DNA of 23,506 bases, taken from positions 1 to 23,506 of the IMG/VR virus record IMGVR_UViG_3300044910_000535; one strand, 5' to 3'. The stretch is from a virus. How positions within the stretch are numbered: the first letter of the stretch is position 1; the number at the start of each line of letters is the position of its first letter. The notes beneath the pieces were generated by a model that saw only the letters and a program-made list of their open reading frames with translations, was not told the origin of the DNA and did not search any database. The position numbers were made by a program, and so were the translations under genes. Positions 1,114 to 23,506 of the stretch are shown here, piece after piece.

Positions 1114-2139
1114 ATGACCAACGTGAACCCTTCCCAAGTCCGCCGGGCGACCGCCTTGCACGCCGTTGAACAACTGGCAGCGCTGATGGCGGCAGAAGCC
1201 ACCGCCCCGGCGCTCGATCGCGACGCAGTGCGCGCGGAGGTCCGCGCCGTGATCGAGGACCTGACCGCCGACGCGCGCCGGGCTCTTGACAACGTGCTAC
1301 CTCACGCCCGCCCTGACGCGCTGGGCGCAAGCGACAAGTACACCCGCACGCCGACGTGCGACGCGCTCGACGCCGCGCTGAAGGTGATGGACGTGGACGG
1401 CACGCGCTGCGTCATTATGAGCGGCCCGTCTGGCAGCTCGAAGACGTTCGCCGCGCGCCATGCTGCAGCGCGTCGCGGGCGTCCCGTGTACACCGTGGAG
1501 TGTAGCGCTGCCACAACCCGGGAGGACTTGCTTGACCGGCCGTGGACCGGCACGGAAGCCGGGCGCCTCGCGTTTGTGGAGGGCGCAGTGGCTCGCGCCA
1601 TGCGCGACGGCGGCACGCTCATTCTGGATGAGTTCGACTTAGTCCACGCCAGCGTCGTCGGTGCGTTGCACTCGGTGCTCGACCGGGACGCAAGCGCGCG
1701 CCTGTTGTCGGGCGAGCAGCTAGTGGCGCACCCCGCTTTCCGCGTCGTGCTGACGTGCAACGGGCTGCGCCGGGATAGTGGCGGCAACTACTCGGTGCAG
1801 ACCATCAGCACCGCGCTGAAGGGCCGCGCGCTGTTCATCGCAGCGGACTACTTGCCGGAGGACGTGGAAGTCAAGCTGTACGCCGCTCACGGCTACGACG
1901 AGAAGAGCAGCCGGTGGGCGCTTGCTCACTTGGTCGAGGCCCGCGCATTGTTCAAGTGCGGCGCGCACGACGTGCCGCCGTCACCGCGCATGGGCCTGCG
2001 CGTGCTCGCGGCGCTCAAGGCCGGGCTGCAGCCGGAGCAAGCTTGGGGGCTCGCGCTCATCGACGCCTTGCCGGTGAAGGCGGCTGACCAAGTTCGTGAG
2101 CGCTTCGCCGCGCTGAAGGCGACGGGGGTGACGCTGTGA
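1114..2139 (+). CDS. MoxR/CobS-like AAA+ ATPase
   Basis: A 341-aa AAA+ ATPase. I choose the ATG at 1114 (GAGAG 9 nt upstream) over the in-frame TTG at 1108. Walker A is GPSGSSKT (residues 104-111, Lys110). Walker B is LILDEFD (Asp172-Glu173), followed by a helix reading ALHSVLDRD as in MoxR/CobS proteins, where E-x-n-L-L-x-x-LE is usual. A sensor-1-like LTCNG follows, and a helical lid domain makes up the C-terminus. The first ~85 residues are an alanine-rich helical extension. Proteins of this family remodel partner complexes with ATP, usually together with a vWA protein, and the next gene, overlapping by GTGA, is exactly that. The target is unknown. Like its neighbours it has very GC-rich third positions, unlike the flanking phage genes. 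The family call is firm; the biological role is open. Confidence 0.85.
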   Translation: MTNVNPSQVRRATALHAVEQLAALMAAEATAPALDRDAVRAEVRAVIEDLTADARRALDNVLPHARPDALGASDKYTRTPTCDALDAALKVMDVDGTRCVIMSGPSGSSKTFAARHAAARRGRPVYTVECSAATTREDLLDRPWTGTEAGRLAFVEGAVARAMRDGGTLILDEFDLVHASVVGALHSVLDRDASARLLSGEQLVAHPAFRVVLTCNGLRRDSGGNYSVQTISTALKGRALFIAADYLPEDVEVKLYAAHGYDEKSSRWALAHLVEARALFKCGAHDVPPSPRMGLRVLAALKAGLQPEQAWGLALIDALPVKAADQVRERFAALKATGVTL

Positions 2140-3839
2140 GCGCCTTCACCCTGACCGCGCCCCAAGGGCACACGCTCGGCGGCATGACCATCGCGCCGAA
2201 CCGGATGCGGGACTACCACGCTAGCTGCGTTGGCAAGGCCGTCGTCATGCGACTCGCCGGTAATGACAACGGCGCCAGCTTGCTGGACAACGTCGCCGCC
2301 CTGACTGCGTCGCGCCTTCTGGTGAACTACGGAGGCAAGGCTGCAGCCAAGCTGTTCGCCGCCGGTGAGCATCATGGGGCTCGGCACGTTATCGCTGAAG
2401 CCGGTAAGCTTCCGCTCGCCGTGCTCGACCGTTTGAGCGTTGACGAGTGGCTCGTGCTGTTCGCGATCGAACGCAGCGAAGTGGATGCCGCCGTCGAAGT
2501 TGCGAAGTCGGCCCAGGTGTGTTCGGAGACGAGCGCCCGAAGCTCGAAGCTAACCCACCAGGCGTCAGCCCTTCGCCGTCGCGCGGCGGCGGTCCAGCAC
2601 GCCGAGGCCGAGCTTCAAAACGCACAAGCGTGGAACGACTCCAAGCGCTGCGAGCTGGCCCGGGCTCAGGCGCAACGGGATATGCTCGACGGCAGCACCG
2701 GCAACCGGGGCGAGAAGTCCCGCGCCACTCGCGCTCTGAACGAGGCCCGGACGGCAGCAGTGAAGGCCGAGCAGCGCCTGCAGGAAGCGCGTGAGCGCAT
2801 GGACGCAAGCGCGAAGGCTGCCGAGCTGACCGCCGAGGAGGCTCAGGTGATGGCCAAGGCCGACGCCGCAGCGCTGGAGTCTGTCGAGGCGCAGCAGAAG
2901 CACCGCGCTGCGATGACCGCGTGGTGCGCGGTGCAAGCCGCAGCCAACCGGAAGGGCGACACTCACGGCAGCGCCGTCCAGTCGTTCGGTGACTTGCTGG
3001 ACGCGACAACGCAGAACTGGTACCGGGAAGGCCGGTTGCTGGACGCCGTCGAGCAGCAGACTGGTGAGCGGTACGAGCGGAAGACCGGCGGGGCCGGGTA
3101 CTCCGGCGCTTACTCGTGCGGGAAGTGGCAGGCGCTCGAGCGCTCGCCGCTCTCGCAGGGCGCGCAGGACTTTGCCGAGGCCGTGCGCGTGGATGCCGAC
3201 GCCAACACCGTCGTGGATGAGTTCGGCGCGCGCGTAGCGTCTCCCGCGCTCGTTGGCTGGGCCGTCGGCGCGCTGCGCACGCCGCTCTGCACGCGACGTG
3301 CCGGGCGCCAGCCGGTAGCCGTGCAGTTGCTTGTGGACGTGAGTGGCAGCACGGGTGGAATGTCCGTGTCGCTGGGTGTCGCAGCCGCGCAGCTTGTGCG
3401 CGCGCTGCGCGCCGCCGGGCATGACGCCGCCGTGGACGCATGGAACGGCGAGAACTGCAGCGACGAGCAGCCGCCGGTGCTGAACTGGTCGCAGCCGTTA
3501 GACTGCGATTTCGCGCCGAGCAAGCCGAGCGGCGGCACGGACCTGACGCACAGCGCAGCGCCGCGCATGGGCCGACTGCAATCGACTGCGCGCGTTGGCA
3601 TGCGGCAGCTCGTTGTGGTCCTCACCGACGGCGAGACGCGCAGGGACGACCGCGAGTCGTTCCTGCGCAAGGCGTCTTGCCCTTGTGCGTACATCATCGT
3701 CGAGAGCAACGCGCTGGCCCCGGACGCTGACGAGGGCTGGCGCGTCGTGCTGCGTACGTCGGCTGGCGGGTTGCTCGAGGCGCTGACCGGCGCCGAGTTC
3801 GTCGCGCTGATGGACGCTGCTGGTCAGCCAGTGGGTTAG
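2136..3839 (+). CDS. vWA-domain protein, partner of the AAA+ ATPase (CobT-like)
   Basis: A 567-aa protein starting at a GTG that overlaps the ATPase stop codon (GTGA), so the two are probably made in a fixed ratio. Residues ~1-110 are a helical N-domain. Residues ~130-270 are Ala/Glu/Arg-rich and strongly coiled-coil-like. Residues ~395-560 are a von Willebrand factor A domain with a complete metal-ion-dependent adhesion site: DVSGST (Asp401, Ser403, Ser405), Thr468 in GGTDLTH and Asp498 in VLTDGETR. MoxR-vWA pairs include CobS-CobT chelatases, and vWA-MoxR ternary conflict systems have been proposed. No cobalamin or other metal-insertion gene is in the window, so a chelatase role is not supported. 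By analogy the vWA subunit would dock a substrate through the metal site for the ATPase to remodel. Confidence 0.85.
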   Translation: MSAFTLTAPQGHTLGGMTIAPNRMRDYHASCVGKAVVMRLAGNDNGASLLDNVAALTASRLLVNYGGKAAAKLFAAGEHHGARHVIAEAGKLPLAVLDRLSVDEWLVLFAIERSEVDAAVEVAKSAQVCSETSARSSKLTHQASALRRRAAAVQHAEAELQNAQAWNDSKRCELARAQAQRDMLDGSTGNRGEKSRATRALNEARTAAVKAEQRLQEARERMDASAKAAELTAEEAQVMAKADAAALESVEAQQKHRAAMTAWCAVQAAANRKGDTHGSAVQSFGDLLDATTQNWYREGRLLDAVEQQTGERYERKTGGAGYSGAYSCGKWQALERSPLSQGAQDFAEAVRVDADANTVVDEFGARVASPALVGWAVGALRTPLCTRRAGRQPVAVQLLVDVSGSTGGMSVSLGVAAAQLVRALRAAGHDAAVDAWNGENCSDEQPPVLNWSQPLDCDFAPSKPSGGTDLTHSAAPRMGRLQSTARVGMRQLVVVLTDGETRRDDRESFLRKASCPCAYIIVESNALAPDADEGWRVVLRTSAGGLLEALTGAEFVALMDAAGQPVG

Positions 3840-8816: not shown

Positions 8817-9686
8817 ATGACCAACAAAATGTTTGACCAAGACAAGGCTACTGTGGCCGCGAACGAGGCCGCTGCACTGGAACGCCAAGCCAAGCTTCAG
8901 GCCCTTCGTACACCGTTCCCTCCCGAGAAGATCAGCCGCAAGCCCAAGGGCGGCGCGATGCTCGACTACGTCGGGCACGCCGACATCACTGAGCGCCTGC
9001 TTGACATTGACCCGGAATGGAACTGGCAGCCCTGCCGCTGGCACGAGGGCGTGCCGGAGTTTGAGCGCGACAAGAGCGGCAAGCCTATCGGCCTGTGGAT
9101 CCGCCTCACTGTGTGCGGGGTGACGCGCCTTGGCTACGGTAGCGTGGAGTCAACCGCCTTTGACGCAGAGAAGCAGTTGATCGGTGACGCGCTCCGCAAC
9201 GCGGCTATGCGCTTTGGCGTGGCATTGGAGCTGTGGTCCAAGACCGAGCGCAACACGGCGGCATCTGCGCCCCCGGTCAAGGCACAGCGCATTGAGCGCG
9301 CGCTAGCCCCCAAGCCCCAGCCTGTTCCGGAGCCTCAGTCCGGGGACGATGGCTTCATGGACCGTCTCGTCAGCAAGTTTGAAGGGGAAGAAGACACGGT
9401 CCCTTTTGATTCAGCGACCGGCGAGGTCGTCGGCGTGACTGAGGTCAACGGCGTTCCGATCACGCATGCGTACAGCCCCGAGACCGCGTACGCACAGACG
9501 CTCCCGTTTGGCAAGCACAAGGGCATGACGCTGCGCGCGCTGGCCGCGAGCAACGAGGGCTCAGGCTATCTGCGTTGGCTCGGTAACAAGATTGCCGAGC
9601 AGTTCAAGCAAGGCAAGCAACCGAGCGCCATGGAAGAGTACGCGCTTATGGTGGTGCATGACCTGCAGAGCAAGGGGGCGCTGTGA
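8817..9686 (+). CDS. Rad52-like single-strand annealing protein with ExoX-like C-terminal domain
   Basis: A 289-aa protein. Residues ~35-145 contain LDYVGHADITERLLDIDPEW, a WIRLTVCGVTRLGYG strand pair and LIGDALRNAAMRFGVALELW. This resembles the Rad52/DdrA-like annealing proteins of phages, which bind single strands and pair complementary DNA. Residues ~150-220 are a Pro/acidic linker. Residues ~235-280 read LPFGKHKGMTLRALA and then YLRWLGNKI, the 'PFGK-x-KG-x-x-L...YL-x-W' pattern of the small domain at the end of exodeoxyribonuclease X-like proteins. The next gene is a YqaJ-like exonuclease, starting in a GTGA overlap; annealer plus exonuclease is the standard phage recombination pair. No strong ribosome binding site is seen. 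The Rad52-like call is a fold-level guess supported by the partner. Confidence 0.7.
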   Translation: MTNKMFDQDKATVAANEAAALERQAKLQALRTPFPPEKISRKPKGGAMLDYVGHADITERLLDIDPEWNWQPCRWHEGVPEFERDKSGKPIGLWIRLTVCGVTRLGYGSVESTAFDAEKQLIGDALRNAAMRFGVALELWSKTERNTAASAPPVKAQRIERALAPKPQPVPEPQSGDDGFMDRLVSKFEGEEDTVPFDSATGEVVGVTEVNGVPITHAYSPETAYAQTLPFGKHKGMTLRALAASNEGSGYLRWLGNKIAEQFKQGKQPSAMEEYALMVVHDLQSKGAL

Positions 9687-10612
9687 TTCTGACCGACATC
9701 ATTCACGGCTCGCCTGATTGGCGAGTAGCGCGCAAGGGCAAGATCAACTGCAGCACCGCTGCAAACATCTTGTACCCGAGCATGCGAGGCGTGCGCGGCA
9801 CTCCGCTCAGCGAGTACATCCGCATCACGAACGAGCTTGATGGCAAGGACGTGCCCGAGGACGTAGACGACAGCTTGCAAGAGCTGTTTGACTGGGGCAC
9901 CAAGAGCGAGCGCTTGCACTTGGAAATCCTTGGGGACAAGTACCCCGACATCCTGATTGCGGCCAACAACCGCATGATCGTGCATGACCAGTACAGCTTC
10001 ATCGTAGGCACGCCTGACGCTTTCTGCTCAGGCTACGCAGAAGGACAGACGGCACCGCAAAAAGCAGTCATTGAGCTGAAGGCGCCTGTGTTTCACGACC
10101 CGTGGGGCGACGAGTGCCCGATTGGTCCGCAGACTCAGGCCCGTTTGTACGCGATGATGGCCAACGCTGACTACGGCATGGTGTCCGCGCTGATTCCTCC
10201 GTCTGTCAACGTGTACAAGTTCGACCGCGATTTAGCGTGGGAGGACTGGGCTACGACGATGCTGGTCAACTTCTGGAACGACCACATCGTGAAGCGCGTG
10301 CCGCCCCCGGCACAGTACGCCAAGGACCTTGAAGCACTCAAAGACGTTGTGCGGGCCGAGAACAAGGAAGTATCCTTGGACGCAAGTCTTCGCATGTACG
10401 GCGAGATGCTAGACGAAGGCAAGGCCATGGCCGATGCCGGAGAAGAGATGCAGCGTCATGCCCGAGCCAAGATCCTAGAGGCGATGGGCGACGCAGAGGT
10501 CGGTCGGTTCGAGGAAGGAGACGGCTTTAGCTATCTGCCCCAGACCCGCAAGACCCCGGCGCGCGAGGCTAGCACCAGCACGTTCCGTGTTTTTCGCCAG
10601 CTAAAGAAGTGA
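9683..10612 (+). CDS. YqaJ-like exonuclease (PD-(D/E)XK)
   Basis: A 309-aa nuclease with a GTG start inside the previous stop (GTGA) and an AAGGGGG ribosome binding site. The active-site series of the YqaJ/lambda-exonuclease fold is visible in order: ST-A at the N-terminus (NCSTAANIL), GTKSERLH (Glu), IVGTPDAF (Asp), VIELKAP (Glu-x-Lys) and QTQARLY (Gln). Such enzymes chew one strand from double-strand ends to give single strands for the annealing partner. Length and motif spacing are normal. Residues ~215-280 form a charged helical tail. Confidence 0.85.
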   Translation: MILTDIIHGSPDWRVARKGKINCSTAANILYPSMRGVRGTPLSEYIRITNELDGKDVPEDVDDSLQELFDWGTKSERLHLEILGDKYPDILIAANNRMIVHDQYSFIVGTPDAFCSGYAEGQTAPQKAVIELKAPVFHDPWGDECPIGPQTQARLYAMMANADYGMVSALIPPSVNVYKFDRDLAWEDWATTMLVNFWNDHIVKRVPPPAQYAKDLEALKDVVRAENKEVSLDASLRMYGEMLDEGKAMADAGEEMQRHARAKILEAMGDAEVGRFEEGDGFSYLPQTRKTPAREASTSTFRVFRQLKK

Positions 10613-11136: not shown

Positions 11137-11180
11137 CGGGGGAGCAGCTGGATATAAGACGGCTGCTCCCCCGGTCTTTT
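11137..11180 (+). terminator. Rho-independent terminator of the recombination operon
   Basis: A perfect 12-bp stem, CGGGGGAGCAGC (11137-11148) with GCTGCTCCCCCG (11162-11173), a 13-nt loop, then GTCTTTTT. The T-tract runs into the stop codon of the convergent helicase gene. It works for rightward transcripts; the minus-strand side lacks a T-tract. Confidence 0.9.
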
Positions 11181-12580
11181 TAGTCGTAGGCGTTGTTGTC
11201 CCACCAATCGCCACCGCGCTTCTTGCGTGCCGGAGGAGCGACCGGGGATTGCTGGGACACCTTGGTGAAGTCTTCGACCTGAGGCAATCGGGTCTTGAAG
11301 CTCACCACGTCAGCGTCGAACGTCATGTTCACAACCTGACACGGCCCGTTCCGGTGCTTGGCAATGTCAAGCGTTGCCAGTGTCGGGTCTTCGTCGTCAC
11401 GGAACAGGTGGGGCCGGTTGAGCAACAGCACCACGTCAGCGTCCTGTTCGAGAGAGCCAGACTCCCGAAGATGGTTGAGGCGGGGAGACTCGTCTTCTGC
11501 TGTGCGGTTCAGCTGGGCTAGCGCGATCACGGGGCAGTTCAGCGTTCGCGCCATCACCTTCAGTTGGCGGCTGACCTCAGACACCGCCTCGTACCGGTTG
11601 TGCTTGTCCTTGCCGGACTTGATGCACTGCAGGTAGTCAACGACCACCAAGCCCAGACCTTGCTTGTGCTGGACCTTGCGGCAGAACCCGCGCATAGACA
11701 GGGGCGTTACGTCCGGGCTGTCCTTGACGATGATGTTGGCACCGGCAATCTCCTTGGCCGCGTCCCGGATGCGCGTGGCTTCCTGTGTCGTGGCCTGACG
11801 AGACTTGAGCGCGTGCAGGCTGACACCTGCGCTCCCGCAGATCATCCGCTCCCAGATCTCACCACGGGTCATCTCAAGCGAGAAGAACACCACGGTATAG
11901 CCCTGAGCGGCCACCTGCCGAATCAGGTCGCACGCCATGCTCGTCTTGCCTACACGAGAGCGCGCGGCAAGCAAGATGAGCTGACCGGCCCTGAACCCGC
12001 GAAGCACGTCATCGAGATCCGGGAACCCGGACATGACGCCTTGGCCCTTGGTCTCAACCGGCTGAACCAGTCTGTCTGCGGTAGACAGCGCTTCTGGGTT
12101 GGCGTACCCGACGTCGTCGCTCCGGCCACGGCTTACGATGTCGGACAGCTTGCCCTGCATCTTGTCGATGGCGTCGTAGACAACGGACTCTTCGGGCCGA
12201 AGGTTCTCGCTCTCGCTAAGGACCTCCGTCGCCACCGCAGCCATGTCCCTGAGCGCGGCATGGAGGCGGATCCTCTGGCACAGGTGGTTGAAGTATGCGT
12301 CGTTGACGCCCCGACCGAGGATCTCGGCAATGGCGACCCGGCCACCAACCTTCTTGAGCGAGCCAGACGCCTGAAGCTCGTCCGACACCGTTCCAATGTC
12401 CACGACTTGGCTCCGGGCCGACAGCGCTAGCACCGCACCGTACAGGAGCTTGGCCCGCTCTCCCGTAAGTGCGTCAACCGGAACAAGTTCCGACGCTTCC
12501 GCCACTAGGTGCGGCGATGTCATGACGAGGCATAAGAAGTCCTTCTCCGTTCCCGGATCACCGTGTACTCTCTTGGTCAT
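11180..12580 (-). CDS. dnaB: DnaB-type replicative helicase
   Basis: A 466-aa protein from the ATG at 12580; the longer frame upstream crosses the promoter region. Residues ~8-110 are the DnaB N-terminal helical domain (KLLYGAVLALSARSQVVDIG). The RecA-like domain has Walker A ARSRVGKTS (Lys212; the first position is Ala, as usual in DnaB), Walker B LVVVDYLQ, the LAQLNR motif, LRESGSLEQDADVVLLLNR, and the arginine-finger region AKHRNGP. The tail is basic and rich in Pro/Trp. It should unwind phage DNA at the fork as a ring hexamer. No primase gene is in view. It is transcribed against the recombination operon, from its own promoter 12588-12616. Confidence 0.93.
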   Translation of the reverse strand: MTKRVHGDPGTEKDFLCLVMTSPHLVAEASELVPVDALTGERAKLLYGAVLALSARSQVVDIGTVSDELQASGSLKKVGGRVAIAEILGRGVNDAYFNHLCQRIRLHAALRDMAAVATEVLSESENLRPEESVVYDAIDKMQGKLSDIVSRGRSDDVGYANPEALSTADRLVQPVETKGQGVMSGFPDLDDVLRGFRAGQLILLAARSRVGKTSMACDLIRQVAAQGYTVVFFSLEMTRGEIWERMICGSAGVSLHALKSRQATTQEATRIRDAAKEIAGANIIVKDSPDVTPLSMRGFCRKVQHKQGLGLVVVDYLQCIKSGKDKHNRYEAVSEVSRQLKVMARTLNCPVIALAQLNRTAEDESPRLNHLRESGSLEQDADVVLLLNRPHLFRDDEDPTLATLDIAKHRNGPCQVVNMTFDADVVSFKTRLPQVEDFTKVSQQSPVAPPARKKRGGDWWDNNAYD

Positions 12581-12584
12581 GCCG

Positions 12585-12597
12585 TGGACTATGGTAG
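12585..12597 (+). promoter_or_regulatory. TGGAYNNNGGTAG motif, copy 3
   Basis: TGGACTATGGTAG, 4 bp from the helicase start codon and overlapping its -10 box. The minus-strand string GCTACCATAGTCCAC is 14/15 identical to that in front of the gene at 574. Confidence 0.5.
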
Positions 12598-12616
12598 CGC
12601 CGACAACAAAAGTCAA
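12588..12616 (-). promoter_or_regulatory. Helicase promoter
   Basis: On the minus strand, TTGACT (12616-12611), a 17-nt spacer, then CATAGT (12593-12588). The start codon follows 7 nt after the -10 box, so the transcript would be nearly or wholly leaderless. There is no Shine-Dalgarno site. Its -35 box forms the dyad GTCAA-N-TTGAC (10-nt core between the arms) with the -35 of the opposing promoter. Confidence 0.6.
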
Positions 12617-14637: not shown

Positions 14638-17600
14638 CTACTTTGTCCGGCGATTGAACCTGATGTTGTACTGCTGCATGCGGAGCAGCATTTTCTTAGT
14701 GTACCGCTCCTGCGCATTCGGATCAGTAGCTTCTTTAGCCATTTTGCGTAGGCCCCGGATTTCCTTTTCGGTGTCGGTCGTAAGGCTGTCCATGGACCGC
14801 AGCTTGCTTCTAGACGCTTCGTTCTTGGTCTTTGGGTCCTCGAAGTCGTCTCGCCATTCGGCCATCTTCTGGATGTTCTCGTAGAACTCAGACATGGTCC
14901 GGTTGGCGGCGGGCGTTTCGCGGAAGAACCGACCGACAATCGGTCCTGCCAGCGGAACCTCGCGCACCGTAGACGGACCTTCGCCAAACAGCTTCATGAA
15001 CCCGTCCACGCTACTGAACAGGTAGTCTCCCGCGCCCCCAGCCACAAAGCGCAGGACGTGCTCAATGCTTTCGGGCGAGATGTCTAGGATCTTGATGGCT
15101 GCCTTCTTGCGCTCGCTTCCCCCGGCTAGCTCGTTCAGGTATTCGGCCGCTGCCTTGATCGCCGGGTTTACAGTCTTGAACGAGAGCTGGCTGTCCGGGA
15201 CCGGCGTGCGATCGTACGGGTTTTGGTCCGGGTAGATCTTCTGGCCACGGAAGTCGGCGTTTTCTACAACCTGCACAATTGGGTCTGCAAACGTAGGCGA
15301 AACAAACTGGGCCAAGCTTGCCCCGTCCATGGGACTGATGTTCGTCAGCGCCACTTCCATAAAGTTGCCCATGCCCTCAGTCGGCGTCTCGTACCCGGCA
15401 ATGATCCGGTCGAGCACGACACCAGCGTAGTACGGCACGTTCAGTCCGTACGGGAGCGGGATGTTGATTCGACCGTTTTGTCCGAGCTTACTAGGCGCAA
15501 CGATGTTCCCTTGCAGCTCGTGCTTGGGAATGTTCTTCATCTTGTTTTCGCCTTCGTCGTCATCGTCGGCGGCCATGCGGGCAATGAAGTGGTTCATGTA
15601 ACCAAACATCATCATGGCCGTCAGGCCGCCAATCATGCGCCGGTTCTGCTCGGGGGTGCGATCTGCGGCCCACGGCATGCGCCGGTTGATGTTTAGCGCT
15701 GACTGCATGCGCGCGTTGAAGAACGTGTACATGGTGTTGAGCGTCGGAGACGCCGTTCCACCGCGCTCAAAGTTGATCGTGAGGTTCTTGGCTTCCTCGG
15801 CGCTCTTGAGGGGCGACATGCCATTCTGCGTACGGGCCGCTGCGTAGCTCGCAAGGCGCACGCTGCGCTCTGACACTTGGCCAAAGCCGACCAGCACCCT
15901 GCCGATCTTGAGTGCTAGGCGCTTGGCGATGTCAGGCGTGATGTCTTTGACAGCGCGCAGGACCGTGCCGGGCTTGGTACGGCCAAACAGAATGTCCATC
16001 TCTAGCTGCAACTCGGCCATTGCGCTTTCAACGCTCTGGTACTGGGCGTACTCAGTGAACCCGCCCTCGTTGTCCATTTCGTTGTAGAACTTGGCCATCT
16101 GGGGATTGGTCGGCTTACGACCAAACGCCATCTGGAAGCACGTCCTAGTTGCTGACGGCATGTACTTAGACATCACCTTCAGCGTCTCTGTGCCCCGGTC
16201 AACCCAAGTAAAGAACAAGCCCAAGCCAGCGTCCCGCAGGAAGTTGGTCGGGATAAACGCCGGGCTGTACTGCGTGTTCAGCCGGGTGTACAAGCGCGTC
16301 AGTGAAGCCGTCCACGCCGTAAACGTTGACAGGCTTTGCGAGTCCATGTCACGCAGTGCCTTGACGATCTCGGCATTGCGAATGACGACGTGGACTTCCT
16401 TGCCCTTGAACTTAGCCGTGATGACGCGCTCAAGGTCCTTGACGGGGATTGCGTCTCGGTTCTTGTAGAACTCCCATGACGGGTTCGGGTTGGCCTTCAG
16501 CAGCGTCAAGAACGCTTGACCAACGCGGTTCCGCACAGCGCGCGAAGCGACCGCGCCGTAGTCCACAATGGCAAATCCAAGCAAGTCGTCGGCAAGCGAC
16601 GTCCGGCCCTTGGCCCGTTCTGATTCGCGGCCCTTGATCGAAAACGAGCTACCGCCAAAGGTTGTCTCGGACGGATCGTTCTTGGTTGTCTTGAGCGGGA
16701 TGTAGTCGGGCCCGTACTTGCTTTGCCAGTCACGGGACGCTTCTTCGCTCAATAGACCGTACTGGACGGCTAGCTTGAGCTTGCGGGATTGCAGGTCGCG
16801 CGACGCAGCAGAGATCTCGTCGTAGTGCTTTTGCTTGCCGCTTGCCGCTGCCCGGCTCAGGATGTCGTCGGCCTGAGCGTTGGTCATACCTGACTGCGAC
16901 ATCAGGTTCGGGTTGCGCGCGACCATCTGTGCCGCTCTAGCAGCCGCAGCGACCGAGTTACCGGCTGCCAGCGCTGCTGCGTACACGTCGTCCGCCATCA
17001 GGTCGTCAACCAACAAGACAGCGTTTCGGCGCTTGGCGTGCTTGGCGTACAAGTACTCCTCGGCAGACGGAATGCCGGTCGGCGCAGCACCAGACGAAGT
17101 AGCCGAAGTAGCTGTAAGCGGGATGTCGCCATCAGCCAAGGCCTTCTGGATACGAGAGATGATCTCGTCCGAGTACTGAAGCATCTTGGCGAGCTGCGCC
17201 TTGTGCATGTCGGCGCGCGCGCTGAAATCCATCGTCTCGCGGAACCGGGTCAACCGGCCCGTCACCGGGTTCGGAACGCCAGCGGCCTTGGCTGCTTCAA
17301 TGGCCTTCTGCACATTCCGAGGGGCCATGAGCTTGTCACCAAGTCTCTTGATGAAGAAGCCCATCGAGGGGTCGTCCATCTGGCTGAAGTCCAGAGGATT
17401 GTTCTTGTCGCGGCCATTGCTAAACCACGGGCGCGGGTCCGGGAAGAACGCGCGCATCTTGGCCGGGTTTGCCATGGGGTCAGCCCCGGTCGCTAGCACC
17501 GGACGGACCGAGCCAGAAGACAAGGTCATGAAGCTCATGCTCTTGATGTCTTCGACCTCGTTGACGTACATGATCCCGTCAATGCCTGCGCTCAACAGCG

Positions 17601-20600
17601 CGTGTGAAGCGGCAAAGTGGTGGTAGCCGTTCATCGCCTTCTTGACTAGGCGGCGCGCGTCAACCATCTGGCTTGCTTCGGACTCAGGCTCCGAGTACGC
17701 CGCAGCCGCGAAGGCCGTAAACGCCTTAGCCCATTCAACCGGCCCGTCGGTGCTGGGGCTGTAGCCACTAGCTACCACAGCGTTGTAAACGTCCGGGACC
17801 GATAGCTCGTAGTACTTGATGATGTCCTTGGCATTGACCCAAGACATCATGAACTCCATGGCCACCGGCGAAACCGTCTCGTACGACTGCAGGTCCATCT
17901 TTAGCTCAAACGAGCGCGGATGGCCGTCAAAGTCATACGAAATCGTCTTCGTGAACTTCGGGTCCCCGGCCTCGTCAACTAGCGCAGACGTTGTGACGCG
18001 GGTGTAAGACGGACGAACCTCGAATGCGTCCACGGCCGAGATGCGGCTCATGATCGCGCGCGCTTCTGCAATCTTTGGCGCTAAGGCCGCGCCCGCGTAC
18101 TTTTCCTTCAGGATGTTGAACGCGACCGCAAAGTGACCGGCATGCACAGAGTAGTTGTAGGTGACATCCGAAAAGCTCTTCGGGTCAAACGTATTGGCTA
18201 CGCTGTCCGACGTCACTACAGGGGACTTGGCAGAGACCACCATAGGGTAGTCAACGACCGACGCGAAGGATCCGTTCGTGAACAGCACCATCCGAGGACG
18301 CGCTGTTTCGGTTACGGCAAAGTGCTGGGAGTTCTCCTCGGCAAGGGCGCGAAGCTCGCTGCGCGCGTTGAGGTACTTAACGATGTTGAGCCTGTACGCC
18401 TCACGCAAAGACGCTAGCAGGCCCTCAGGGTTTTGAACGGGCGACGGCTCAGGAGCGACAAACGCCGGTTGAGGTTGGGAGGTTTTGATAGACGGCGACT
18501 TAGAGACAGCCGCCACCAGCATGCTCTCAATAGACCCGGTGGGCGTCAAAGCAAGAGCGCCAACGTTGATCTGCTCGGCTAGGTCAGACGCATTCTTGAA
18601 TAGATTCTTGATCTGCAGCGTCAGCTTGAAAGCTTTGTCTGCGCGCCAAAGAACCTTCATCTTTTCGTCGTTAGACAGGCCCTGCACCGACGGCAGCGAG
18701 AAGATGTCAGTCTGCGTGGGGTGACGGAGGAACGGGTTAACCGTTCTGTCAATAGCGGCAGTCGGCGTACCTAGGTGCGCGTACGGTGCAAAGTTCGCCA
18801 CGCCTTCACTGGGCGTGCTTGCAAAGCCTGAAGAGTAGGCAGCCCGGCGAATGGCCGTGGAGTGGACAAGCGGCACGGGCTTTCCGTCCGGGGACGTAAA
18901 CGCAGAACCTTCAAGGAACCGCTCAATCTCCGGGTCCACGTTAACCAGATTGATGTCTGGGTCCTCGAACTGCTCAAGCAGTTGAGGGTTCTCAGCCAGC
19001 CAAGGCTCTAGCGCATCCTGCAGGGCCTTGTTCGACGGCTTCAGCTCATTCGGGTACTTGGTGAAGAAGCTGATGTTTTCGTTCGGAACAAACGCTCGTA
19101 GTTTTGCACCTCCTCGACCGCCTCGTTCATCAGCTCCACGTTCGATCTCTGCTTGCGGCTTAAATTTGGATAGGCCTCTTGCAACCAAAGGTCCACTGTA
19201 GGTCGATGTCCGTCCCGCAGAATAGAATGAAGTTCTAGGCTCAGTTGATGCCAGTACCCATTCCGGTAGGCGTGCTCCACCAGCGGCTTCGCGGATTGTG
19301 GCAAAGGTTTGTTCGCGGCCAACGACGGCTGCGCGGTCAATGGCTTCTGTGATTGCACGTTTGCTTGCTTTAGCTTCCGATCCTGAGGCTCCATACCGCG
19401 TACCTTTCGGCAAGTCAAACAGAGAGCGGATCTGCTCCCAGACGATTGACTGCATTTGTTTGGGCAGCACGCCGTGGCGCTTTGCCGATCTAATGTACGC
19501 CTCGCGAATCAGGGCGTATAGGCCTGACGTGCCAAGCGCATCGCTGCCCGGGGCTTTTGACAAGGTCTGCTTGACGACGGTGTCTTCGCCGGACAGAGGC
19601 TGCATCAGCGCAGCCGCGATAGCGTGCGTGTCAACCGTGACCGTCAGCTCGTTGGTTGGGTCAGCAATGTCAGAGTAGAAGCTGCGCACCTTGTTCTGCG
19701 AGCCCAGCTGGATAGACACTGTCTCAAGGTCTGACTCATCAGCCAGCCAGATCTTTAGTGCCTTTTCGACAATGTTTGTGCTGCCCCAAGCAACGCTGTC
19801 GCCGGTCGGCGTGTACAGCATGCCATCCGGGCGTGCGCGCGTGTACTCACGGCTGTTCTTGGCTTCGTCAAAAGCTTTGACCGAATACCGTACGTTTTCT
19901 CTTGCGGTAATGATCTCTTGCTGGTTTTGCGCCATTTGCTCTGCAGTCCACCCTGTGGCCCGCTCGACAAACTCAGCGCTAGGCTTTGTGAGCCTTACAT
20001 ATTCGCGGACAAGGTCGCCAATGCTCTTGCCCTTAACCGAGTCACGCACGCGCTCTAGTTTCTTGATGGTCTTAAGCGCGGCATTGACTTCGGCTTCGTC
20101 CCGCGCGCGCTTGGCCTTTCTGGCCTTTTGCATCTCGGCGCGCTCTTCCGGGGACGCCTTACTCAGCTTCTTGCGGTACCTTGCTTCGCGGTTCCTAATC
20201 GTGTCGATAGATTCTTGGATCTCCGCAATCTTGGCGTTAAACCCATCCTTGAAGACTTGGTCGTCAATGACGGCACGATCCATAGCGACAAACATGTCAA
20301 GCACGCGCTCTGTCAAGCTGATGTTTTGGTCCCAGTCTTTCTGGGGGCTAAACACCGCAATCATGGCAGCGGCCTTCTCTAGCGAGATCCCGTAGCGTTT
20401 AGACCAGTAGCCGCCGATGATGTTCGCGCCCCGGTACCACAGCTTTGCGGCCTCGCGGGCCTGCGGGTCCATAAGCAGGAACAGGTCTTCAAGGTTGTCC
20501 GCCATGCGCTCGATGGCGATTTCGAGCACCTCGCGGTCCGACTTGCCTTTTAGCTCGCCACGGTTGATGAACCGGAAGTCCTTGGAGCTCTTGACGATCT

Positions 20601-23506
20601 CGACCAGCTTAGACACTACGTTTAAGCCGGTCTTGCTATTGAACAGCTGCTCGTAGTCAGCCTGAACGTTGATGTCTTGAACGTCGGTGACAATCCTGCG
20701 GCGCTCGCCGGTGCCTTGGTATCCAATAGCGCCTGCCATTGCCTTGCCCGGTTTCATCTCCCGGGCAACGCGCTTCTTCATAGCGTCAACAATGCGCCTG
20801 AACCCCGGGACCGACCCAAGCGTCGAATCGCCTGTGTCGTTGTCGTTGGGGATAAAGGCGCGCAGCTTTGCGCCTCCCGGGATGTCGTCTAGGTCTGATT
20901 GCGCTTGAGCAATCTGGCCACGAAGGATCTCAACGATCTGTTCGTCTGTCTTGCCGGACAACTCCGGGTTGGTCATTGACAGGGCGCTACGCAGTTCTGC
21001 TGCTTCGGGCGCCAGCATTGCCGTCAACCCGTCAATAGTCTCGCGCAATTCAACGGCCTTGGTCTTTTGCTCAGGAGTTGCCTCCGGCATAGGCACATCT
21101 GTGTTGGCGGGCGGCGGGGTTGAGGCGTCGGCTTCTTCGCCTTCCTCGCCCTCTTCACCTTCCTCGGTAAGCTCAGGCTCGGCCTCGGCGGCTCCCTCGG
21201 CTTCAAGCGCGGCTTCGGGCGTAGGCGTAGGCGTAGTCGCTTCTACCGGCGCAGTAGGCGCAGCGGGCTCTGTAGGCGCAGGCGTAGTCGTTGCAGCGGG
21301 CTTGGGCGTCGCCTTGCCCTTGGGCTTCTGCGGAACAGGCACAAACGGCGTGGCCCCAATCATCACGCGCTGATTGGCCTTGCCCTTTGCCTGAGCCTTG
21401 ACCTCCGTGCGCACGGCATTGCCGTGACGGGTGACGTCGTTTAGGTTGTACCCGGCTTTCTTCAGGTCAGCCTTTAGCTGGGTAGCGGCGGCTGTGGACT
21501 TCCTGCCGCTTCCCTCGGTCGCAACAATGTAAGCGGCTCGGTCAAAGTCACTTTCAAAGTCAATGTTGTTGCTACCGTACTTCTGCTGGCCGTTCTTGAC
21601 GGTCGTGGGAAGCTTAAACCCAGACGTGTCCTTAGCGCCAGCCGGGATTGGCTTGGGTGCAGCAGCGGTCGGGGTGGTCGTTGTCGGGGTAGTGGTCGTT
21701 GACGTAGAGCCCGCAGCGCCTGCCGTACCTGTTGCGCCTGCCGTGCCCGTCGCCGCAGCTGTACCGCGCGATAGCTGCAAGCGCTTCATGATGTCTTGGG
21801 CAAGGCCCCGAGATCCCGTCTCAGTAGCAATGGCTTGCTCGACGTCGGCTTCGCTTGTGCCGGAGTCAAGCATGCCGGAAGCCTTTGACATCAGATCGCG
21901 CCGACGGTCAAGCAAGTCCGAGATCGTCTCGTTGAACTTGGTGACAGCGCCCATCGCCTTGACGACGCCGCCCTTGCCTGACTCGGTTGCGCCGCCGACC
22001 TTGCGATTGATCTCTTGGCTAAACTGCGCCTCAAACGCCTTGGCCGAGTCAAACAGCCTGTTGATGATTTGCTCTTGGAACGGAGACGCAGTTCCGCGCT
22101 TGAGCATTTGATTGCCCCAAGACGTGATGACGTCAACCATGTCGGCAAAGATGCCCGGGGACCGCTCGTACAGTTTGATCATGTCCGCGTCGGACATAAG
22201 GCTGGTAGCCAAATACCCCGACATGCGGTTGGTCATGAAGTTGGTCAGCGCTTCTTCCGTGAGCAGGTCGTCAACTTGAGCGACCGAAAACTTAGGGTTG
22301 TCCTTGCGCGCTTGATCAGCGTAAGCGCTCGAGGGTCCAAAGTTCTGCTCTTCAAACTTCAGGTATTCGTCGCCAAACGTGTCAATGAAGTACTGGCGCA
22401 AGGCGTCAATGTCGCCACGAAACGAACGCCGAAGGTCATGCACTACCTCGTGCGACTTGACTACGGCAAACTGCATTTCCGGCGACACCGCCGCGTTGAC
22501 GTACACCGTGCCAGTCTTTTCGTCGTACCAGCCAACATGGCCGTTGGACTCGCCGGTGGTGATCTTGTCTTCAGCTACGCCTGTCGCGCTGGAAATATCC
22601 GTCGCATTGTCTGACGGCTTGACAAAGACCACGCGCACGCCCGTAGACGCCAAGTTCTTAGCGGCTTCGTCTAGGGCTTCGGTGCTTGCCGTTGTCAGGT
22701 CCCAAGCCACGCCCGTGTCCATCAACTCCTGCCGCATCTCGGCTTGCTGCTCAGGAGTCATGTCCGCGTACTTCACCGTCTGCTGCTCGAGCGGTTGCAT
22801 CGAGCGGTCGCCAACACGGAAGAAGGACTTATCGCCGTTAAAGATCTTCTCTAGCTCGGACAGACGGCCCTTTGTTGCCTTAGCCTTAAACGCTGCCATA
22901 GCAGCCAACGGCGACGTGGCAAGCGGAACCGTGTTAAACAGGCTTGCTTGGCTTTCAGCAAACCGGCTCATGATTGTCGAGTCGTCCTTGAGGTACGACG
23001 CCTTGCCTACTGAGCCCGCTAGCGCCTCGCCTTGCTCACCAAGGTACTCCTTGCCAATCTCCACGGCCCCAGTGGTAAAGAAGCCGGGCAAGTCCTTGGC
23101 CTTCGGCAAAGGGATGCGCTTGCCGGAAACAGGCGCGGTTACCTTGCCCGCAAGGCCCGGCGCAAGCTTGCCAATCAGCGCGTCGGTTGTGCGCTCAAAC
23201 TGGCCGGACACAAGGCCCATCGCAATCGGCAAACGACGCTCCTTGCGTGCTTGCTCGGGATCGTACTGCTGGCCAGCTTCCTCGGCCTGAGCTACCTGCG
23301 TCTCGTACGCTTCCTTGCCCGCGCTACCGGCCATCTGTAGCGATGCCGCCTGAACGCCGGTCGAGCCAGCGGCAAACCTAGCGCCACGGCTAATTGCGTC
23401 GCTCGCGGTGCGCAAGCCTGCCGGTAACCTAGAAGCAACTTTTCCGGCACGAGAAACAGCGGACGCTCCAGCGGTTGTCTTAGCTAGGGCTTTTCCCGCC
23501 GTCTTG
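14638..23506 (-). CDS. Giant polyvalent virion-type protein (5' end beyond window)
   Basis: At least 2955 codons, open from the window edge to the TAG at 14638; the true start is outside. Four blocks. A (23505-20878): Gly/Ala-rich start as in internal virion proteins; a zincin-like KSHEVVHDL (HExxH at 22452-22438) with a later LLTEEALTNF as possible third ligand; low-complexity Thr/Pro and EEGEEGEE linkers; and a small domain with FESDFDRAAYIVA. B (20877-19114): a domain with SPQKDW, NKVRSFY and VTVDTHA, like DUF7178-type phage domains and faintly like HhH-GPD glycosylases. C (19113-17470): an ADP-ribosyltransferase-like domain with LVHSTA, then GIDGIMYVNEVED at its end, with a long insert. 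D (17469-14641): an LPD38-like helical region with ERGGTASPTLNTMYTFFNA. Such proteins are thought to be injected with phage DNA and act early in the host. Domain names rest on remembered patterns. Confidence 0.8.
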   Translation of the reverse strand, partial: KTAGKALAKTTAGASAVSRAGKVASRLPAGLRTASDAISRGARFAAGSTGVQAASLQMAGSAGKEAYETQVAQAEEAGQQYDPEQARKERRLPIAMGLVSGQFERTTDALIGKLAPGLAGKVTAPVSGKRIPLPKAKDLPGFFTTGAVEIGKEYLGEQGEALAGSVGKASYLKDDSTIMSRFAESQASLFNTVPLATSPLAAMAAFKAKATKGRLSELEKIFNGDKSFFRVGDRSMQPLEQQTVKYADMTPEQQAEMRQELMDTGVAWDLTTASTEALDEAAKNLASTGVRVVFVKPSDNATDISSATGVAEDKITTGESNGHVGWYDEKTGTVYVNAAVSPEMQFAVVKSHEVVHDLRRSFRGDIDALRQYFIDTFGDEYLKFEEQNFGPSSAYADQARKDNPKFSVAQVDDLLTEEALTNFMTNRMSGYLATSLMSDADMIKLYERSPGIFADMVDVITSWGNQMLKRGTASPFQEQIINRLFDSAKAFEAQFSQEINRKVGGATESGKGGVVKAMGAVTKFNETISDLLDRRRDLMSKASGMLDSGTSEADVEQAIATETGSRGLAQDIMKRLQLSRGTAAATGTAGATGTAGAAGSTSTTTTPTTTTPTAAAPKPIPAGAKDTSGFKLPTTVKNGQQKYGSNNIDFESDFDRAAYIVATEGSGRKSTAAATQLKADLKKAGYNLNDVTRHGNAVRTEVKAQAKGKANQRVMIGATPFVPVPQKPKGKATPKPAATTTPAPTEPAAPTAPVEATTPTPTPEAALEAEGAAEAEPELTEEGEEGEEGEEADASTPPPANTDVPMPEATPEQKTKAVELRETIDGLTAMLAPEAAELRSALSMTNPELSGKTDEQIVEILRGQIAQAQSDLDDIPGGAKLRAFIPNDNDTGDSTLGSVPGFRRIVDAMKKRVAREMKPGKAMAGAIGYQGTGERRRIVTDVQDINVQADYEQLFNSKTGLNVVSKLVEIVKSSKDFRFINRGELKGKSDREVLEIAIERMADNLEDLFLLMDPQAREAAKLWYRGANIIGGYWSKRYGISLEKAAAMIAVFSPQKDWDQNISLTERVLDMFVAMDRAVIDDQVFKDGFNAKIAEIQESIDTIRNREARYRKKLSKASPEERAEMQKARKAKRARDEAEVNAALKTIKKLERVRDSVKGKSIGDLVREYVRLTKPSAEFVERATGWTAEQMAQNQQEIITARENVRYSVKAFDEAKNSREYTRARPDGMLYTPTGDSVAWGSTNIVEKALKIWLADESDLETVSIQLGSQNKVRSFYSDIADPTNELTVTVDTHAIAAALMQPLSGEDTVVKQTLSKAPGSDALGTSGLYALIREAYIRSAKRHGVLPKQMQSIVWEQIRSLFDLPKGTRYGASGSEAKASKRAITEAIDRAAVVGREQTFATIREAAGGARLPEWVLASTEPRTSFYSAGRTSTYSGPLVARGLSKFKPQAEIERGADERGGRGGAKLRAFVPNENISFFTKYPNELKPSNKALQDALEPWLAENPQLLEQFEDPDINLVNVDPEIERFLEGSAFTSPDGKPVPLVHSTAIRRAAYSSGFASTPSEGVANFAPYAHLGTPTAAIDRTVNPFLRHPTQTDIFSLPSVQGLSNDEKMKVLWRADKAFKLTLQIKNLFKNASDLAEQINVGALALTPTGSIESMLVAAVSKSPSIKTSQPQPAFVAPEPSPVQNPEGLLASLREAYRLNIVKYLNARSELRALAEENSQHFAVTETARPRMVLFTNGSFASVVDYPMVVSAKSPVVTSDSVANTFDPKSFSDVTYNYSVHAGHFAVAFNILKEKYAGAALAPKIAEARAIMSRISAVDAFEVRPSYTRVTTSALVDEAGDPKFTKTISYDFDGHPRSFELKMDLQSYETVSPVAMEFMMSWVNAKDIIKYYELSVPDVYNAVVASGYSPSTDGPVEWAKAFTAFAAAAYSEPESEASQMVDARRLVKKAMNGYHHFAASHALLSAGIDGIMYVNEVEDIKSMSFMTLSSGSVRPVLATGADPMANPAKMRAFFPDPRPWFSNGRDKNNPLDFSQMDDPSMGFFIKRLGDKLMAPRNVQKAIEAAKAAGVPNPVTGRLTRFRETMDFSARADMHKAQLAKMLQYSDEIISRIQKALADGDIPLTATSATSSGAAPTGIPSAEEYLYAKHAKRRNAVLLVDDLMADDVYAAALAAGNSVAAAARAAQMVARNPNLMSQSGMTNAQADDILSRAAASGKQKHYDEISAASRDLQSRKLKLAVQYGLLSEEASRDWQSKYGPDYIPLKTTKNDPSETTFGGSSFSIKGRESERAKGRTSLADDLLGFAIVDYGAVASRAVRNRVGQAFLTLLKANPNPSWEFYKNRDAIPVKDLERVITAKFKGKEVHVVIRNAEIVKALRDMDSQSLSTFTAWTASLTRLYTRLNTQYSPAFIPTNFLRDAGLGLFFTWVDRGTETLKVMSKYMPSATRTCFQMAFGRKPTNPQMAKFYNEMDNEGGFTEYAQYQSVESAMAELQLEMDILFGRTKPGTVLRAVKDITPDIAKRLALKIGRVLVGFGQVSERSVRLASYAAARTQNGMSPLKSAEEAKNLTINFERGGTASPTLNTMYTFFNARMQSALNINRRMPWAADRTPEQNRRMIGGLTAMMMFGYMNHFIARMAADDDDEGENKMKNIPKHELQGNIVAPSKLGQNGRINIPLPYGLNVPYYAGVVLDRIIAGYETPTEGMGNFMEVALTNISPMDGASLAQFVSPTFADPIVQVVENADFRGQKIYPDQNPYDRTPVPDSQLSFKTVNPAIKAAAEYLNELAGGSERKKAAIKILDISPESIEHVLRFVAGGAGDYLFSSVDGFMKLFGEGPSTVREVPLAGPIVGRFFRETPAANRTMSEFYENIQKMAEWRDDFEDPKTKNEASRSKLRSMDSLTTDTEKEIRGLRKMAKEATDPNAQERYTKKMLLRMQQYNIRFNRRTK
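17437..17469 (-). other. Repeated domain-border motif, copy 3 (NPAKMRAFFPD)
   Basis: This lies between the ADP-ribosyltransferase-like block and the LPD38-like block of the giant protein. It matches copies 1 and 2 as AK-[LM]-RAF-[IVF]-P-[ND]. A new segment begins right after it (PRPWFSNGRD). Confidence 0.6.
19081..19113 (-). other. Repeated domain-border motif, copy 2 (GGAKLRAFVPN)
   Basis: This lies between the DUF7178-like block and the ADP-ribosyltransferase-like block. Ten of 11 residues equal copy 1, while most codons differ at the third base, so the peptide rather than the DNA is conserved. Confidence 0.65.
20845..20877 (-). other. Repeated domain-border motif, copy 1 (GGAKLRAFIPN)
   Basis: This lies at the end of a linker helix after the acidic low-complexity stretch and before the DUF7178-like block. 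It is preceded by DDIP and followed by a Gly/Asp/Ser loop, a plausible exposed site. Confidence 0.65.

Follow-up and report, generated by a model that had tools for sequence, protein, structure and literature searches.

What is a short peptide doing three times over in a single giant phage protein, each time between one recognisable domain and the next? The question is raised by a gene on the minus strand of IMG/VR virus record IMGVR_UViG_3300044910_000535, a viral record of 23,506 bases that was analysed at its full length and is called the window here. A sequence-only reading had located peptides of the form AK[LM]RAF[IVF]P[ND] at three domain borders of the encoded protein and had taken them for a protease processing site or for a docking or unfolding signal. 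All three peptides are present on the minus strand of frame 14638-23505, and we consider it very likely that they represent the border peptide of this phage, a short linear motif repeated in the flexible inter-domain linkers of a large polyvalent protein (LPP). The gene and the peptides are as follows, with residues counted from the visible start of the frame.

14638 to 23505, minus strand: large polyvalent protein gene, from open reading frame calling; 2955 residues visible, 5' end beyond the window.
20845 to 20877, minus strand: putative border peptide copy 1, GGAKLRAFIPN (residues 877-887); predicted local distance difference test (pLDDT) about 50-66 in a model of residues 861-1500.
19081 to 19113, minus strand: putative border peptide copy 2, GGAKLRAFVPN (residues 1465-1475); pLDDT about 27.
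17437 to 17469, minus strand: putative border peptide copy 3, NPAKMRAFFPD (residues 2013-2023); identified from sequence, and recurring at the border ahead of the C-terminal block in a comparison with other giant proteins.

The nine-residue cores lie at residues 879-887 (AKLRAFIPN, 20845-20871), 1467-1475 (AKLRAFVPN, 19081-19107) and 2015-2023 (AKMRAFFPD, 17437-17463), and no frame of the window or of IMG/VR contig L002, which overlaps it, contains a fourth copy. Recurrence by chance is a negligible explanation. The pair GGAKLRAFIPN/GGAKLRAFVPN scores 56 (BLOSUM62, 11 residues), against 38 for the best of 30 shuffled versions of the protein; the expected number of additional matches to the motif class in the protein is about 1e-6, and other giants offer parallels. 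Copy 3 alone, with pairwise scores of 33-34, falls within the chance range as a pair and does not surpass the highest-scoring chance pairs.

Copies 1 and 2 share 10 of their 11 residues, and 6 of these 10 are encoded by different codons, much as the sequence-only reading had described. DNA identity among the copy pairs is 25/33, 20/33 and 18/33 bases, and no sequence similarity flanks the three window copies. The peptide has thus outlived the similarity of the DNA encoding it, and the proposal that selection acts on the peptide, in linkers between unlike domains, is supported by its recurrence beyond chance together with the codon divergence. The same features make it improbable that the peptide is a scar of domain shuffling, that is, a linker remnant copied along with inserted domain cassettes and retained as a harmless linker: the window copies lack flanking similarity, copies 1 and 2 have changed codons, and the copies come behind unlike domains.

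Contig L002 shares 9854 identical bases with the window, reaches further upstream of the giant frame and supplies the missing start, an ATG at L002:9443 preceded by AAGGAAAG, giving a full length of 3141 residues. Numbered from this start, the peptide copies begin at residues 1065, 1653 and 2201. The block sizes first proposed (about 880, 590, 550 and 940 residues) hold approximately for the visible protein, where the blocks measure 878, 579, 539 and 932 residues, but the first block is really 1064 residues long. Within these blocks the following could be recognised.

22126 to 22722, minus strand: zincin-like stretch with HEVVH (residues 352-356; 22438-22452), proposed from the HExxH motif and the LPP context only.
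19417 to 20667, minus strand: DUF7178 block (Pfam, residues 1244-1360, E 4e-25; phrog_3842; AlphaFold2 predicted core at residues 947-1363).
17539 to 18933, minus strand: possible ADP-ribosyltransferase (ART)-like block (residues 1525-1989), from weak profile matches.
14650 to 17061, minus strand: conserved C-terminal block (residues 2149-2952; phrog_14770, E 9e-99; tblastn).
Residues 2654-2852, minus strand: LPD38 within the C-terminal block (Pfam, E 4e-27).

A Pfam search gave no family match for the first block, which carries HEVVH at residue 352, and none for residues 1525-1989, where two collinear matches to an LPP ART-domain profile are weak and neither is significant alone. In PHROGs, three families of giant proteins (members of 2800-3900 residues) cover the C-terminal 750 residues or so. 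The C-terminal block was found by tblastn in phages of Vibrio, Burkholderia and Escherichia and in other phages at 22-29% identity, Shiga-toxin phages also being among these relatives and the named comparisons being made with other phages; a PDB search with the block returned no match. The homologue in Pelagibacter phage Lederberg is encoded behind the genes for tail tubular proteins and for a putative internal virion protein. Judged by its sequence, with 3141 residues, several unlike domains, LPD38 and DUF7178 exceeding the Pfam cut-offs and membership in giant PHROG families, the window protein is an LPP as defined by Iyer et al. (2017; PMC5512222). It is very probably packaged in the virion and ejected, because two relatives have been found in virions: JC1 gp69, a Burkholderia relative in the DarB-like group detected in purified virions (PMC9144972), and P1 DarB, an LPP packaged via its first 30 residues (PMC9024508).

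The three peptides lie outside the recognisable folded blocks. Copy 1 stands about 60 residues ahead of the DUF7178 core (residues 947-1363) and copy 2 about 100 residues past it, while copy 3 comes shortly past the last strand-like segment of the preceding block and about 135 residues ahead of the conserved C-terminal block. The original description of peptides situated exactly at domain borders is therefore correct as far as domains are recognisable; 'exactly' is loose, since domain ends cannot be placed to the residue. An AlphaFold2 model of window residues 861-1500, which rests on few sequences (8; mean 61) and covers copies 1 and 2, folds residues 947-1363 and leaves both copies at the low values listed above, so that burial inside a folded domain, which would have spoken against the sequence-only reading, is not seen for these two copies. 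In a second AlphaFold2 model, of an ART domain flanked twice by the peptide RFMP in another giant (45 sequences), block means are 81-96 for the greater part of the domain, and both RFMP peptides have a pLDDT of about 50-65 and no secondary structure. In the models, border peptides are thus placed in low-confidence linkers beside confidently folded domains. The lack of secondary structure makes it very improbable that the peptide is a structural cap, the final strand of the preceding domain. Such a cap is suggested by a tail, QIKSATGN..FDP.NPDIRFS, that stands directly behind the ART fold in many LPPs; border peptides, however, also come ahead of domains and behind unrelated ones.

Is the peptide a signal shared by phages? 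IMG/VR (2.9 million viral contigs) and 84,980 prokaryote genomes were scanned with a degenerate nucleotide pattern that encodes AK[hydrophobic]RAF[hydrophobic]P[ND]. In IMG/VR, three copies were present only in the twin contig, and there were four further single matches, none in LPPs. The prokaryote genomes gave 68 single matches, and among those in long frames none repeats the motif. These stray matches look chance-like, and several fall in ordinary proteins. As the scans gave only this phage and chance-like matches, AK[LM]RAF[IVF]P[ND] is private to this phage and is no universal phage signal. The search for it as a general signal in phage giants thus found no other LPP carrying it in either collection.

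The arrangement, rather than the peptide, recurs elsewhere. We ran unsupervised searches for repeated ten-residue stretches and repeated four-residue patterns in 141 non-redundant giant frames. This set was gathered in part by the NPDIR[FY] pattern introduced below and many of its frames are partial, so that all frequencies are conditional on this. A first alignment of the C-terminal block was too diverse, and a closer one gave 80 loci; these may include Shiga-toxin prophages, and only their giant frames were analysed. Border peptides came top in both searches: L107 has five copies of FMPE; there are four copies each of RFMP in L147, IxFMP in L119, RYSP in L060 and FSRR in L125, and three each of FMPxP in L149, FSPxR in L122 and RYSV in L101. 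According to Pfam positions, the peptides adjoin different domains and frequently stand on both sides of one. L101 has a peptide at 558, ART at 583-776 and a peptide at 784; L139 has a peptide at 1148, ART at 1170-1314 and a peptide at 1322; L107 has a peptide at 1115, ART at 1151-1317 and a peptide at 1326, and another at 1625 ahead of DUF7178 at 1685. In L125, peptides at 1463 and 2182 precede PBECR5 (1479) and LPD3 (2215), respectively. The window motif is akin to the RF-M-P type, with an arginine, an aromatic, a hydrophobic residue, a proline and a polar residue. As a side observation, the giant frame of L003, whose phage protein includes a DUF7178-like domain, shows another type of repeated linker at residues 325 and 863 (KHPRGEHGRW / EHPRDPKGQW).

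We presumed that LPPs often carry a tail QIKSATGN.G.FDP.NPDIR[FY]S behind the ART domain, and put this to a pattern scan, which returned at least 120 stretches, mostly in giant frames, against about 3 expected by our own estimate. Among 1142 bacterial genomes drawn from four classes, just 4 carry NPDIR[FY], which suggests that it is mostly a phage feature. The window lacks this general tail: it has NPAKMRAFFPD instead of NPDIR[FY]S, behind a block without a significant match to ART domains, and the position is analogous only. The tail trails ART domains so regularly that it seems to travel with them, as the domain-shuffling explanation would have it. Concordance was computed over the 70 giants with NPDIR[FY], with the ART tails masked. 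The protein's own nine-residue peptide had a better second match within the protein than in the others in 20% of cases at p<0.05 (5% expected; Kolmogorov-Smirnov p 6e-5), with 7/70 at p about 0.

Since the copies agree within a protein and differ between proteins, we infer one cognate factor per set of peptides, acting at every border. This factor would recognise each linker through the repeated peptide and would most simply be a phage or host protease that splits the chain into its domains, either while the head is being assembled or once the protein has been ejected, in the manner of viral polyproteins; the products expected for the window protein would be of about 1064, 579, 539 and 932 residues. 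We regard this favoured reading as a whole, a border peptide recognised by a single cognate factor, in the simplest case a protease, as evenly poised between being right and being wrong. That a protease does cut at the border peptides is a prediction from sequence that we consider somewhat less likely than not. More tentative by a shade is the broader proposal that LPPs are true polyproteins, in which each lineage has its own cleavage peptide at the borders and a cognate protease, one injected chain yields separate effectors, and AK[LM]RAF[IVF]P[ND] is one dialect.

Several observations weigh against this favoured reading. The sequence-only reading had named the HExxH zincin as a candidate self-protease, but giants with and without HExxH repeat peptides about equally (12/16 against 59/91 in 107 giants, many of them partial frames; Fisher p 0.31). 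If cutting occurs, the internal zincin is therefore not the obvious agent. Zincin and ART domain trees on which the peptide types were marked have long branches and favour neither side, and for many proteases a conserved proline beside the region of the cut would be unusual. The core-only and flank-only forms of the concordance test over the 70 giants were not significant, and at the homologous border ahead of the C-terminal block a recurring peptide is clear in only some 5 of 48 relatives, of which 4, the window protein included, reached p<=0.025, a modest excess. Some giants, such as L125, repeat a longer stretch, possibly a linker that was duplicated, which would also suit a shuffling scar. 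Cleavage at the border peptides is possible, and is predicted rather than observed.

The factor might also bind without cutting. Each copy could be a docking motif for one partner (an internal head protein, the portal or a host chaperone), allowing ordered packing or domain-wise threading. The independence of repeats from HExxH agrees with this, and other giants repeat a different motif, F-x-x-[LVI]-P, at the N-terminus, the site of the packaging signal in P1 DarB (PMC9024508). Examples are DFGF[VI]PD in L227 and LFDDLP[ND] in L190 (there also inside, at 118 and 406), with further cases in L163, L031 and L202, and the window's F-[IV]-P-[ND] resembles the F-[VI]-P-D of L227. However, the motif is missing from the window protein's own N-terminus, the peptides stand at both ends of domains, an arrangement that docking would not call for, and P1 DarB is packaged without an internal repeat. 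As P1 DarB, a single data point, has neither HExxH nor a repeated border peptide, the repeat appears dispensable for LPP packaging in general. On balance we consider docking, the chief competitor of cutting, rather unlikely. The first 45 residues of the giants in L227, L190, L163, L031, L202, L198 and L203 contain repeated DFGFVPD/DFGFIPD, LFDDLPN, FADLPD, FDDVP, EWTPVE and GGFFDEF, and the motifs of L190 and L227 recur deeper in the protein. These N-terminal repeats are possibly capsid-targeting signals.

How do the favoured border motif and its protein relate to known systems? LPPs of phages and conjugative elements, with P1 DarB, LPD38 and ART-PolyVal among them, were described by Iyer et al. 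(2017; PMC5512222), who predicted their processing by zincin peptidases and drew the parallel with polyproteins. The window protein resembles them in its giant multidomain make-up, LPD38, DUF7178 and a possibly zincin-like HExxH, and differs in the recurrent protein-specific border peptide, the new element here; their paper names no linker peptide, and the word 'linker' is absent from its main text. With RNA-virus polyproteins the giants share repeated short inter-domain sites that agree within a protein and vary from lineage to lineage, whereas here the candidate protease motif, HExxH, does not track the repeats and cutting is only predicted. Phage prohead proteases, such as SPN3US gp245 (AXE; PMC10052503), likewise use a short motif, cut there in several internal head proteins of which some are ejected. 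Their sites lie in N-terminal propeptides, whereas the window motif lies between domains in one protein only, and we rejected an AXE-type substrate because none of the three copies contains a glutamate. Capsid targeting sequences (the first 30 residues of P1 DarB, T4 IPIII; PMC9024508) are similarly short peptides able to bind a head component, and are N-terminal and single in the known cases, while the window peptide is internal and repeated. In agreement with the sequence-only reading, which knew of no such description, the literature, searched for the peptides and for any signal of this class, yielded nothing, most subscription journals lying outside the search. The protein class and its predicted processing are thus already known, and the repeated protein-specific border peptides appear to be new.

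How proteins of 2000-4500 residues are packed, pass the tail and are split into working parts is poorly known. If giants do mark their borders in this way, sequence alone would suffice to delimit domains in many unannotated giants, and cutting in the virion or in the cell would become testable by ordinary proteomics on cultured phages.

Some minor observations concern the surroundings of the gene and the general tail. The window (at about 13652) and L002 (at about 19853) part abruptly 3' of the giant gene after their 9854 identical bases, which may reflect an indel, a recombination point or an assembly difference. On the plus strand, an AAA_5 ATPase (1108-2139) and a 567-residue protein without family match (2136-3839) recall CobS/CobT-like phage pairs, and genes for a YqaJ-like recombinase (9683-10612, plus strand) and a DnaB-like helicase (11180-12616, minus strand) lie near the giant gene. 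The tail can also form a C-terminus, since short frames in L071 and L042 end at or right past NPDIRY. In one bacterial genome (G798, contig 51:81880-82929; L344-L346), three NPDIR[FY] tails occur within about 1 kb, some 510 bases apart.
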